Shown here: piece by piece, positions 4,091 through 35,235 of the stretch
Layout: every line of letters begins with the position of its first letter
How positions within the stretch are numbered: the stretch's first letter is position 1
Origin: Candidatus Nanohalococcus occultus
GTDB taxonomy: Archaea; Nanohalarchaeota; Nanosalinia; Nanosalinales; Nanosalinaceae
Assembly (NCBI RefSeq): GCF_029207735.1
Contig: NZ_CP104395.1
Span: 788,692 to 852,691 of the forward strand
Reading direction: 5' to 3'
Length of the DNA stretch: 64,000 nt
Program-made: the position numbers and the translations under genes
Notes under the pieces: generated by a model
Database searches by the model: none
Told to the model about the DNA's origin: nothing
Seen by the model: only the letters and a program-made list of their open reading frames with translations

Positions 4091-4179
4091 GCCGGGATGA
4101 CAGAGTCTGGCCTATTGTGCCGGTCTTGAGAACCGGTGACCCTTGACGGGTCTCCAGGGTTCAAATCCCTGTCCCGGCG
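4091..4179 (+). tRNA. tRNA-Ser(TGA)
   Basis: The acceptor strands GCCGGGA (4091-4097) and TCCCGGC (4172-4178) pair, followed by discriminator G. The anticodon stem CCGGT/ACCGG encloses CTTGAGA, giving anticodon TGA. A long paired variable arm (ACCCTTGACGGGT) marks a class II serine tRNA. The T-arm is CAGGG-TTCAAAT-CCCTG. No intron. Confidence 0.95.
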
Positions 4180-4209
4180 TATTCCTCAAATATTCAGGAT
4201 TTGATGCGA

Positions 4210-4253
4210 GAAGCACTCTACGACTGCTTCGGGTTCAAATCCCTGTCCCGGCG
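4210..4253 (+). repeat. Hairpin plus exact copy of the tRNA-Ser 3' end
   Basis: A hairpin GAAGCA/TGCTTC (4210-4230) is followed immediately by 23 bases (4231-4253) identical to the T-arm and acceptor end of tRNA-Ser at 4157-4179, offset by 74 bases. There is no room for a second tRNA. The same hairpin-then-3'-copy layout recurs at 10414-10527, 29347-29380 and 35190-35235. Confidence 0.85.
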
Positions 4254-4298
4254 TTTTCTAGCTTAGTATTATAATCGAGTTTTCCTCAAAACTTGTCT

Positions 4299-4712
4299 AT
4301 GAAGACCGCAAGAGAGTTGATGGACGAACCTGACTTCATTGAAGCGGATGCGTCCGTCGAGGAAGTTATGGAGGAGGTCAAGGGAATTGAAAACACTTTA
4401 ATTGTAAGGAAAGAAGGGAAGGTAGTCGGCGAGATACATGAAAACTCGTTGCTTAAGGTGCTTGTACCCGAGGAAAAGGTCGATGAGGAGAAAGTAATTG
4501 GGATCTTAGGTTTCTCGTTTGACAGCAGCTACGTAGCGGAGACCGCAGAGGATTTAATGAGCAAACATAACCTCACGGTAGAGCCTGATGAGGATGTCGG
4601 CGATCTAGCTTTCTTAATGGACAAAGAGGATCTAAGGTCCTTACCTGTGGAAGAAGACGGAGAGATCATAGGCGTCGTCCATGAAAACCACTTGATCGAG
4701 GAGATTGAGTGA
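4299..4712 (+). CDS. CBS-domain pair protein
   Basis: A soluble 137-residue protein made of two CBS motifs (about residues 1-55 and 75-137). The pattern is DLM-x-ADAS/DEDV-V-x(n)-LPV-EEDGEIIGVVHENHL. CBS pairs bind adenine nucleotides or ions and gate attached channels and transporters. The stop overlaps the antiporter ATG (TGATG), implying translational coupling and a regulatory role for that transporter, which is an inference. ATG 4299 is preferred over an in-frame TTG two codons upstream. An AT-rich stretch at 4265-4275 could be its promoter. Confidence 0.85.
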   Translation: MKTARELMDEPDFIEADASVEEVMEEVKGIENTLIVRKEGKVVGEIHENSLLKVLVPEEKVDEEKVIGILGFSFDSSYVAETAEDLMSKHNLTVEPDEDVGDLAFLMDKEDLRSLPVEEDGEIIGVVHENHLIEEIE

Positions 4713-5926
4713 TGGCAGCGGGCTTATCTGTTACAACACTGTTTGCGATTTCAGCTGTTCTAGCGGTTTCGTTCGTGATCGGAGAGTTATTCGAGCGGAT
4801 CGGACTTGAATCGATTATCGGATACATTTTCGCAGGTCTGCTTTTAGGACCCGGATTATCGGAGGCGGCAAAGATATTCTCGTTTGTCGATCCCGGCTGG
4901 GCAATCTCCGCGGAGGCGCTGGCAGGTTTCGGAACAATCGGATCCACGCTGATCCTGTTCCAGGCAGGCTTACGTGAGGAGAATGCCGTTGACATATTCC
5001 GACACCGGAAAGGACTTGACCTAGGACTAGGTGTGTTGATCGGAAGCTTTGCTTTCATTCTCGGAGCCTTGCTGGTTTTCGGAGAGCAGTTCCTGCCTTT
5101 CAGCGGAATCCAGCAGTTCGTCTTCATAGCCCTGGCTTACGCGATGATCGATATCGGCGTCCCATCAAAGATAATGCTTTCACGTGGAATGTTGGACAGA
5201 GAGCTTGGAAAGTACACGATCAAAGCATCTGTTATCAATGTCACCGCCGGATTCGGGCTTTTGACCGTCTTAGTGCTGACAACCGCATCAACAGTTCAAA
5301 GCCTGGCTATCCAGATAGCCGGAATCCTAGGATTCACAGCAGTCTTCTTCGTGCTACACAACTTCATCCACAGGATCGATGATTACATCATAATGTTTGA
5401 AGAAGCTGAAGCACAGTTCGCAATCACATTCGCCTTACTGCTTTCAATGGCCTACGTAACCGAGCTAATCGGTCTATCAAGCGTTGTAGGCGCTTTCTTC
5501 GCAGGAGTAATTGTCTCACGAAGCGAGTTCTCCGAATCAAGGGCTTTCCAGGAAAAGATCAAAGCCATCAGCCTAGGCTTGTTTATCCCGCTGTTTTTCG
5601 CATGGTTCGGCCTCGGGCTTACAATCACCGGGCCTAACGGAATGCTTGCGAACATGGAAGCCGCGCTGTTCCTATTCGGGCTTTCCACAGTCTCAAAGCT
5701 GGCGATCGGATACGTTATACCAAAGATCCACGGGTTCGACAGTCCTTTCACAGTAGCAGGATCGTTGCTAAGTCTGGATATCGAGACACTGGTAGTATTG
5801 CTGATAGGGATCGATATCGGTATTTTCCAAAGCAGCCAGGTGCTTCAGATATTCGCGCCAGCAGTTCTGTTCACTACAATAACTATTGTGGGAATATATG
5901 CCGGCCTGGACAAGTTAAGAGAGTGA
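4712..5926 (+). CDS. CPA2-family monovalent cation/proton antiporter (KefB-like membrane domain)
   Basis: A 404-residue integral membrane protein with about 12 hydrophobic segments. The sequences IGELFERIGLESIIGYIFAGLLLGPGL near the N-terminus, LILFQAGLREE, and the YAMIDIG and GAFFAGVIVSRSEF regions fit the CPA2/Kef fold. It likely exchanges Na+ or K+ for protons, which fits a halophile. There is no TrkA-N or TrkA-C domain; the overlapping upstream CBS gene may supply regulation. ATG 4712 is preferred to GTG 4709. Its last 12 bases overlap the end of the convergent gene at 5915. Confidence 0.88.
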   Translation: MAAGLSVTTLFAISAVLAVSFVIGELFERIGLESIIGYIFAGLLLGPGLSEAAKIFSFVDPGWAISAEALAGFGTIGSTLILFQAGLREENAVDIFRHRKGLDLGLGVLIGSFAFILGALLVFGEQFLPFSGIQQFVFIALAYAMIDIGVPSKIMLSRGMLDRELGKYTIKASVINVTAGFGLLTVLVLTTASTVQSLAIQIAGILGFTAVFFVLHNFIHRIDDYIIMFEEAEAQFAITFALLLSMAYVTELIGLSSVVGAFFAGVIVSRSEFSESRAFQEKIKAISLGLFIPLFFAWFGLGLTITGPNGMLANMEAALFLFGLSTVSKLAIGYVIPKIHGFDSPFTVAGSLLSLDIETLVVLLIGIDIGIFQSSQVLQIFAPAVLFTTITIVGIYAGLDKLRE

Positions 5927-6466
5927 TATCCATCCGTAATCCGGGTTGTCTTCGAACGGCCCGGAGCCACGGAACATTTTCTCCATTCTTTCAAGGACCT
6001 GCTCGTCTTTTTCCTCGATTCTCTCCAGTTCATTCAGCTCCTCGATCCCTTCGGAGTGTTCAGCGCTCTCAAGACTTGAATCAATTTCGTTAAGTTCCTT
6101 TTCCATATAGCTTACAATTTTCTTAGCTAACTGTACGTTATGCCGGGCTTTTTTCTCGAACTCCGGGCCTAAGTCTACATTATTCAAGGCTACGTCCGCT
6201 CTTTGAACGTGTTCTTCGATCTTCTGGACTCCGCTCTGGAAGTAGATCATATTGTCCTTGAATTTCTGTTCAGCCCGATTTACATCGGCCGCAGAACCTT
6301 CGGCTTTGATATTTTCCTCAAGAGATTCAAGCCGTTCATCGCCTTGTTCAACCTTCTGGATCAGTGATTCGATCTCCTTTGCGACCTGATTAAGAGATTT
6401 TCTGATCTTCTGTTCAGGTTTCTCCGGACTGCCTGAACCGCCCAGTATTTTATCGATTAAGCCCAT
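5915..6466 (-). CDS. Hypothetical coiled-coil protein
   Basis: A 183-residue, strongly charged protein predicted to be almost wholly helical, with heptad-like runs of E, K and L and no hydrophobic membrane segment. A glycine-rich patch follows the N-terminus (MGLIDKILGGSGS). The pattern superficially resembles small ESCRT-III-like or PspA-like helical proteins, but I see no diagnostic motif. It converges with the antiporter gene, overlapping by 12 bases, and is divergent from the tRNA-Gln that follows. Function unknown. Confidence 0.75.
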   Translation of the reverse strand: MGLIDKILGGSGSPEKPEQKIRKSLNQVAKEIESLIQKVEQGDERLESLEENIKAEGSAADVNRAEQKFKDNMIYFQSGVQKIEEHVQRADVALNNVDLGPEFEKKARHNVQLAKKIVSYMEKELNEIDSSLESAEHSEGIEELNELERIEEKDEQVLERMEKMFRGSGPFEDNPDYGWISLS

Positions 6467-34606: not shown

Positions 34607-34965
34607 CCGATCAGTTATACAGAGAGAAACTTGACTCCAAAGAAGAGGTTCAAGACTGGATGGAGGCCGCTCTGGGAGGAGAGCTGGATGAAGGGATCTA
34701 CGAGCTAGATGTCAAAAACGTAGAAGAGGATATGTCCTACCCCGAAGACAGAGTTACACCAGGATTTACCGCGCCCCATTCTATTTCGGATCTTCAGTGT
34801 GTAGCAAGAGTTTCCAAGGACAGTATTAAGGAAAATAGATCGGAGCTAGAAAGTTTTCTCGCAGAATCTTATTCCAGCGAACAGTTCCTTGGAACAGGAT
34901 TTTACGGAGCGACCTCCAAAAGAGGTAGCGAAATGACTGTAAGCCGGGCCTGTTACTTCGAATAA
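34603..34965 (+). CDS. Hypothetical protein coupled to lipoate ligase
   Basis: 120 residues from ATG 34603, overlapping the lplA stop (ATGA). Mixed alpha/beta: an N-terminal helix (SKEEVQDWMEAALGG), then YELDVKNVEEDM, and a C-terminal ATSKRGSEMTVSRACYF. It might be a divergent stand-in for the small LplB domain of bipartite lipoate ligases, suggested by position only. No catalytic motif seen. Confidence 0.6.
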   Translation: MTDQLYREKLDSKEEVQDWMEAALGGELDEGIYELDVKNVEEDMSYPEDRVTPGFTAPHSISDLQCVARVSKDSIKENRSELESFLAESYSSEQFLGTGFYGATSKRGSEMTVSRACYFE

Positions 34966-35017
34966 GTTCAGGTTCAAAAGAGTTTAGCTCGGTTCACTGT
35001 TTAAGAAGACCTGCTTA

Positions 35018-35074
35018 TCACGCGAGAGTAGCCAAGGAGCTATTGCCAACCCTCCAAAAAACATGGCAAATCAC
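35018..35074 (+). repeat. tRNA-Leu(GAG) 5'-end copy and hairpin leader
   Basis: ATCACGCGAGAGTAGCCAAG (35018-35037) copies the flank and first bases of the tRNA at 35071-35090 with small changes, offset 53 bases. TTGCCA (35043-35048) pairs with TGGCAA (35064-35069). ACCCTC in the loop can pair with GAGGGT of the tRNA 5' end. The TTGCCAACCC and AAAACAT strings match the tRNA-Leu(TAA) leader at 13294-13348. Confidence 0.75.
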
Positions 35075-35157
35075 GCGAGGGTAGCCAAGTGGTCAAAGGC
35101 GCAGCGTTGAGGGCGCTGTCCCGTAGGGGTTCCAGAGTTCAAATCTCTGCCCTCGCA
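35075..35157 (+). tRNA. tRNA-Leu(GAG)
   Basis: Acceptor GCGAGGG (35075-35081) pairs with CCCTCGC (35150-35156), discriminator A. The anticodon stem CAGCG/CGCTG encloses TTGAGGG, giving GAG. Long variable arm (TCCCGTAGGGGT). The T-arm is CAGAG-TTCAAAT-CTCTG. No intron. Confidence 0.95.
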
Positions 35158-35189
35158 AACACCTATAATTTAAGCAGAGATGTAATAGA

Positions 35190-35235
35190 GAAGCTCCGAG
35201 GTTGGGAGCTTCGAGTTCAAATCTCTGCCCCCGCA
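35190..35235 (+). repeat. Hairpin plus copy of the tRNA-Leu(GAG) 3' end
   Basis: A perfect 8-bp hairpin GAAGCTCC/GGAGCTTC (35190-35212) directly precedes a 23-base copy (35213-35235) of the tRNA T-arm and acceptor end at 35135-35157. There is one mismatch (CCCTCGCA versus CCCCCGCA) and the offset is 78 bases. With the 5' copy upstream, this tRNA is flanked on both sides by partial copies of itself. Confidence 0.85.

Follow-up and report, generated by a model that had tools for sequence, protein, structure and literature searches.

The analysed window is a 64,000-nucleotide stretch (C1:788692-852691) of the SVXNc genome of Candidatus Nanohalococcus occultus (G000), a single contig of 948,351 bp, in which several genes are accompanied by a displaced, additional copy of their own end. 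These copies form part of short gene-end units built around a hairpin that begins with GAA and ends with TTC. The tRNA-Ser(TGA) gene (4090..4180; ARAGORN, Rfam RF00005) is intact and lies, like the other window genes and units located below and the 16S-leader hairpin, on the forward strand. Downstream of it, an antisense of the T-arm copy (4195..4204; CAGGATTTGA against TTCAAATCCCTG, a class of pairing tested over 48 units) and a GAA...TTC hairpin with a 6-bp stem (4210..4230) can be read directly from the sequence, and the hairpin abuts a copy of tRNA-Ser nt ~51-73 (4231..4253), which is identical at 23/23 positions to 4157-4179 at an offset of 74. An identical 74-bp unit is present at tRNA-Ser-CGA (C1:317826); the units of the two Ser loci are identical through the copy and diverge immediately beyond it. 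The tRNA-Leu(GAG) gene (35075..35157; ARAGORN, Rfam RF00005) bears a unit at both ends. Its 3' unit (35174..35212) consists of an antisense (35174-35181) and a GAA...TTC hairpin with an 8-bp stem (35190-35212), followed by a copy of the tRNA 3' end (35213..35235; 22/23, offset 78), while its 5' unit (35022..35054) contains a copy of nt 1-15 (35022-35036, 14/15) and an antisense (35043-35054). Similarly, tRNA-Leu(TAA) (13349-13431) is preceded by a 5' unit (13294..13325) with a copy of nt 1-14 (13294-13307) and the antisense TTGCCAACCCCG (13314-13325). At tRNA 5' ends, the units take a mirror form, in which a copy of nt 1-15 is followed by hairpin, antisense and gene. Such mirror units lie upstream of Leu-TAA, Leu-GAG and Tyr in SVXNc, and in the window at both tRNA-Leu genes.

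The same arrangement is found twice at a protein gene encoding a parvulin (PPIC-type peptidyl-prolyl isomerase; 10109..10393). An antisense of the proximal parvulin end (10393..10403; GTCGGTTTTCT pairing with AGAAAACCGAC) precedes a GAA...TTC hairpin with a 7-bp stem (10414..10430), the same 17-mer also occurring at C1:420240, and a first displaced end that repeats the last nine codons in recoded form (10432..10458; IIKKTDER-stop, offset 65). A second hairpin with a 7-bp stem (10482..10498), identical to a hairpin in the 16S leader, is followed by a second, likewise recoded displaced end of nine codons (10501..10527; LIKKTDER-stop, offset 69). An earlier note on this DNA had reported gene-end copies behind GAA...TTC hairpins at the Ser, parvulin and Leu(GAG) genes, and its coordinates hold for all of them, including both parvulin copies. 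It had also listed, again at coordinates that hold, tRNA-Glu(TTC) (29236..29310; ARAGORN, Rfam RF00005), which is followed by a decayed unit (29332..29379) comprising the antisense GCCGGAGG, a hairpin (29347-29360) and a degenerate copy (29363-29379). Although genuine, this copy is weak, with about 13-14 matching bases and a gap at an offset of 69-70; it exceeds shuffles (p about 0.005) but does not pass the strict cognate test described below, and the hairpin closes on 2 bases only. Among the SVXNc tRNA genes checked against shuffles, convincing 3' copies are confined to Ser-TGA, Ser-CGA, Leu-GAG and Glu.

Comparable units were identified in other genomes of the Nanohalococcus order, which are cited by handle (G001 etc.), f1 being the family of Nanohalococcus and f2-f5 other families of the order. 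Copies were counted with a strict cognate test, which requires at least 12 matches to the last 14 nt of a tRNA no more than 160 nt downstream, or at least 11 matches to its first 12 nt upstream. This end test superseded a comparison of the full 35-nt tRNA end with shuffles, used as a first look only, because the T-loop itself recurs in the units and inflates non-cognate scores. Strict cognate copies accompany 54 of 246 tRNAs in the order and 0 of 18 in three archaea outside it, compared with 12 matches in 4,237 non-cognate trials, in which tRNAs and flanks were swapped inside one genome. Counted for any end, copies are present at 5/33 tRNAs in G000, 1/8 in G001, 9/28 in G002, 11/29 in G007, 3/31 in G008, 3/30 in G009, 5/35 in G015, 14/16 in G020, 1/3 in G023 and 2/4 in G024. 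The strict test gave zero in G003, G005, G006, G010, G019, G021 and G022, from each of which few tRNAs were sampled, the smallest samples saying little on those genomes. Furthermore, the window contains six GAA-starting hairpins with a stem of at least 7, against 0-2 (mean about 0.7) across ten shuffles. The strict counts, together with those of the dispersed hairpins given below, clearly exceed their controls, so that the lack of a genome-wide excess which the earlier note had named as refuting its observation is not what was found.

A 3' unit runs from the tRNA through a spacer, a T-loop antisense (typically GGATTTGA), a few bases, the hairpin and 0-4 further bases to a copy of the same tRNA from the T-loop to the 3' end. 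The spacer carries the antisense of the copy, so that a single longer stem is formed by these two and the hairpin between them. The earlier note had recognised neither this antisense nor the second Ser unit nor the mirror units of the window. Most of 51 units measure 66-80 bp, with a median near 74, lengths mainly between 54 and 133 bp and a full range of 54-195. Of 48 units, 38 have a perfect hairpin directly adjoining the copy; 30 of these 38 hairpins begin with GAA and end with TTC, and the commonest 5' flanks of the hairpin (3 bases tabulated, gene-end units only) are GCA, TGA, TAA, GGA and CGA. The copies have sharp edges, with an identity of at least 0.92 from position -13 to the discriminator and of 0.43 at the second base beyond it, although the inner part of this edge is partly fixed by the search rule; 5' copies comprise nt 1-15. 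Several tRNA-Ser units (G007 L072, L079, L080, L145; G001 L078; G002 L162) contain a copy whose T-loop is split by one or two further hairpins, after which T-stem and acceptor resume correctly, and the Ser-GCT form is common to three genera.

Units also accumulate in tandem. The tRNA-Gly gene of G020 is followed by 2.3 repeats of a 77-bp unit without differences up to the contig end, and its tRNA-Leu gene by the succession U1-U2-U1 and a decayed fourth unit; other tRNAs have two to four units. As a rule, copies farther from the gene match the tRNA less well, identity declining outwards in seven, rising in one and tying in three of the arrays judged readable. Past the first unit, loci L429 (G023) and L449 (G024) share a conserved stretch of ~70 nt (GGACTCGAG..GCGAGAGTGGAACCTT..GGTAGG-ACTCC) that leads up to a second copy of a tRNA end. 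This stretch is 72% identical across families, has no Rfam match and may represent a larger kind of cassette.

Closely related genomes differ in the presence of units. In G008 and G015, two species of a single genus, Lys, Tyr, Leu and Gly units are each confined to one of the two. The tRNA-Lys genes are identical in sequence, with a 74-bp 5' unit in G015 and an aligned promoter without the unit in G008; the Tyr and Gly (3') units are present in G015 only, and two Leu (5') units in G008 only. In addition, homologous cores are joined to different cognate ends, as in G007 Ser and G023 Phe (88% over 57 nt, across families) or, across genera, in G001 Ser and G002 Met (87% over 46) and G001 Ser and G002 Tyr (81% over 54). 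One core is common to two different tRNAs inside G007 (L141, L155), and the end is always the host's own. The bases left of the T-loop in G002 Met and Tyr come from the core (GGG) and those right of it from the host, from which we infer that either insertion of the core into the T-loop is followed by renewed copying of the host end, or one conversion event does both.

Unit-bearing parvulin ends were identified in G000 (two), G008, G014 (two) and G002 (without hairpin), and are absent from most relatives. The gene for PCNA in G015 carries two units, so that RIEED-stop is encoded three times with differing codons, and a thermosome gene in G007 has the displaced end MGGMM-stop. Between the gene-side and outer ends of these three proteins, 34 of 37 differing codons are synonymous, where random change would give about 18%; this share is biased upwards by cases found through amino-acid similarity, to which the parvulin cases do not belong. 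A protein-end copy follows 6 of 543 GAA hairpins and 4 of 5,056 other hairpins, the latter four including a trimmed parvulin case and two tRNA arrays. Among 549 protein genes (the window and 400 kb of relatives), a C-terminal copy above the control maximum was found for parvulin only. When the parvulin genes of G008 and G015 are compared, identical codons make up 65% upstream and 22% in the last nine, with every amino acid kept, while sequence identity is 87% just upstream and 70% across the last nine codons. The outer copy is closer to G015, and the simplest reading of this one comparison of short sequences is that the gene-side end is probably the more recent arrival, the outer end being the original one. 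Parvulin lies directly 3' of a tRNA gene in some relatives (L406 in G020; L100/L130 in G001), an adjacency that may have been the route by which it became a target. One scan of a named genome collection with the parvulin query returned no nanohaloarchaeal match.

Beyond gene ends, the hairpin pattern GAARATC-N3-5-GATYTTC (17-19 bp) is present at 84 sites in 8 genomes, against one site for the reversed pattern and three for another palindrome of equal make-up. The sites include the 16S leader, tRNA leaders and introns, and the space between protein genes. The hairpin of the 16S leader (GAAGATCTTTGATCTTC, 40622..40638) is the one shared with the second parvulin unit, and no gene-end copy was found beside it. 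This leader (40591-40638) contains two GAA...TTC hairpins in the layout hairpin - TGGAGTTCGA - hairpin - GAAC, which is also present in a G009 tRNA-Ala intron and in G007 tRNA-Ser units. A further hairpin (7201-7217) sits inside the intron of tRNA-Gln, a gene that ARAGORN wrongly labels as Arg. The hairpins at 40622-40638 and 7201-7217 had been noted before as related and lie where they were described; a third, adjoining tRNA-His (35909-35924), is without a cognate copy. A second hairpin family hugs several G000 tRNAs (flanks at L002, L003, L005, L007 and L024; AAACTTCTGAAAGTTTGATCATCAGAG, AAACTGACAGCAGTTT) and is likewise free of gene-end copies. Several intergenic hairpin pairs split the overlapping stop and start of one operon, leaving ATGA or TAATG on both sides (L474, L477, L482, L460, L466), as if cassettes of the gene-end type entered gene-gene junctions too.

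The dispersed hairpins resemble repetitive extragenic palindromic sequences (REPs), bacterial interspersed mosaic elements (BIMEs) and REP doublets forming hairpins (REPINs), which are short, dispersed, extragenic and non-coding hairpins, often paired, and REPs carry GTAG or CGTC tags and are linked to REP-associated tyrosine (RAYT, Y1) transposases (PMC3733652, PMC3116915). Like REPs, which are palindromes of about 20-40 bp, the 84 GAARATC hairpins are numerous, extragenic and dispersed, so that the units at gene ends appear to be one manifestation of a REP-like family. They differ from REPs and REPINs in that no Y1 transposase was found and in that the copy number of the hairpin per genome is below that of typical REPs. 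To our knowledge, no REPs carry gene-end copies. Rickettsia palindromic elements lie inside genes and in frame, and are tolerated since the product is preserved; unlike the units described here, they do not duplicate a gene end. Integron attC cassettes share imperfect palindromes at one edge and arrays with the oldest members farthest out, but no integron integrase was found (PF00589 is absent from G000) and the units carry a gene end rather than a gene. In Caldiarchaeum, an archaeal tRNA 5' fragment likewise lies beside an intact tRNA; that event is a 1.8-kb insertion coding for a recombinase (PMC3293823), whereas the units reported here are ~75 bp long, numerous and structured.

Anatomy, cognacy, mirror form, tandem arrays, presence and absence between sister species, shared cores and synonymous recoding are the observations behind our interpretation. 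We consider the chances about even that the units constitute a REP-like family of short, non-coding, end-restoring hairpin cassettes that accumulate at gene ends in the Nanohalococcus order. The cassettes would spread as mobile units, with new ones entering on the gene side and pushing old ends outwards. Without involving any known recombinase, spread might proceed by homology-directed copying via universally conserved ends such as the T-loop (GGTTCAAATCC), and we think that the stem of antisense, hairpin and copy would neutralise the spare end, preventing its mispairing with the real gene product. More tentatively, and somewhat on the doubtful side, the units may represent a new archaeal class of miniature mobile DNA that inserts inside essential genes at their ends, lets the host survive by carrying or copying the missing end (cognate for tRNAs, synonymously recoded for proteins), silences the displaced end by an antisense hairpin and spreads between tRNAs via the T-loop. 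Of the three origins offered in the earlier note, the scar of a miniature element is the best supported, and a search of the literature outside subscription papers and preprints found no earlier description of such units, in keeping with the note, to which no described element of this form was known.

Several results weigh against a family of mobile cassettes. No match to Phage_integrase (PF00589) was found in SVXNc, and the Y1/IS200/605 transposase (PF01797) was found in 0/9 genomes with positive controls; mobilisation by IS200/605 elements was ruled out for want of this transposase. Viral contigs contained no exact match to three core patterns, and neither a circular form nor a gain event of a unit was seen. 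A donor cannot supply the cognate end when a core moves between tRNAs, and plain insertion is therefore insufficient. Furthermore, Pro and Lys units with cores of 82-86% identity have long persisted across genera and families, a pattern as compatible with a selected function as with mobility.

The main rival is a functional RNA element, that is, a leader or trailer unit in the maturation of pre-tRNA or mRNA, or a tRNA-like decoy, whose copy and antisense would be under selection; it owes this rank to units that are retained beside one and the same tRNA in several genera, with an antisense that follows the host acceptor. The tRNA-Tyr 5' units of G000, G002, G007, G009 and G015 contain copies and antisenses matching the host acceptor (CCCGCCT, CCCGACT, CCCGACC), and the antisense of Leu units tracks acceptor positions 3-7. 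Bases of the T-loop copy pair upstream in 68% of cases compared with 33% when the upstream sequence is shuffled, with 51 G-T among 633 pairs, and the mean folding z of the units is -2.2. However, units are missing beside identical tRNAs in sister species and occupy a minority of tRNAs in most genomes, arrays decay outwards, protein ends keep their amino acids rather than their bases, and there is no Rfam match. We regard this explanation as rather unlikely. Functional mimicry of RNA had been raised before; the copies do stay cognate and the stems of antisense and copy are real, but it ranks below a miniature element. Mobility and a selected RNA function could also both be true in turn.

Alternatively, the units could be by-products of replication, in which fold-back and template switching at hairpins produce copy, hairpin and antisense at once and slippage expands the arrays, with no element involved. 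A double template switch is expected to leave both inverted and direct copies, and the identical 77-bp array of G020 is in keeping with slippage. In the freshest cases, the repeat goes beyond the mature tRNA to include 12 nt of trailer (G001 Ser) or about 10 nt of leader (G007 Leu), and the duplication therefore takes in DNA outside the mature RNA, which also fits. Purely local events, however, do not predict that different tRNAs, also across families, should share homologous cores, nor do they predict a fixed, dispersed GAA...TTC hairpin family or recoded protein ends, and as a full account this remains improbable. Random drift of a plain duplicate was ruled out by the codon pattern at protein ends. 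Template switching, as put forward earlier, may still make or spread units, but not as a simple duplication followed by drift, which synonymous recoding contradicts.

Intron-like units, in which the stretch between two ends is removed from the RNA and both ends act as exons, would explain why tRNA and protein ends are conserved at the level of the product, and similar hairpins are present in tRNA introns of these genomes. Against this, the gene-side copy is complete without splicing, at protein genes the spacing does not keep to one reading frame, and host tRNAs are uninterrupted and complete by covariance model, in contrast to those with an archaeal bulge-helix-bulge intron. By hand inspection, no 3-4-3 bulge-helix-bulge motif was seen at unit junctions, including the T-loop junction, and no systematic search was made. 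Only tRNA and rRNA models exceeded the Rfam cut-offs, and no known RNA family, including group I introns, was detected; archaeal group I introns are listed in rRNA only (PMC6125680). We consider the intron-like reading very unlikely.

Full-size integrative elements are present at tRNA-Thr or tRNA-Ala in G002 (C1:143500), G007 (C1:862694), G008 (C1:728621) and G009 (C1:818959), with 12-13-nt direct repeats 6.9, 32.6, 10.6 and 22 kb away and without a hairpin. Scars of pNOB8/SSV-type tyrosine integrases resemble the units in the direct repeat of a tRNA 3' end, the restored gene and the recoded C-terminus at protein targets, the last exemplified by e14 in icd, but the units contain no element between the repeats and no integrase, and possess hairpin, antisense and a 5' mirror form. 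An origin as remnants of conventional elements, attached at tRNA 3' ends and since deprived of their interior, would account for direct repeats, a restored inner gene, tandem accretion and recoded C-termini, yet is most improbable given the constant length of ~75 bp, the hairpin always at the same edge, the mirror units and the lack of PF00589 in G000, and integrase remnants were dismissed once the real, hairpin-free elements had been located. The integrase target raised in the earlier note is not supported in its usual sense.

For annotation, the cassette reading, if right, means that repeats of tRNA ends and C-termini in these genomes should not be taken for integrase sites. Two of the genomes derive from laboratory co-cultures, and several predictions of a cassette family can be tested now with the existing RNA-seq data for SVXNc (PMC10266531). 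If correct, end-restoring cassettes would add a new case of a repeat family without a recognised transposase, and would provide a natural system for the duplication of tRNA gene ends, which models of split and permuted tRNAs frequently presuppose. In the streamlined genome of a symbiont, tiny hairpin elements would then live inside the most conserved genes by re-supplying the end that they displace.

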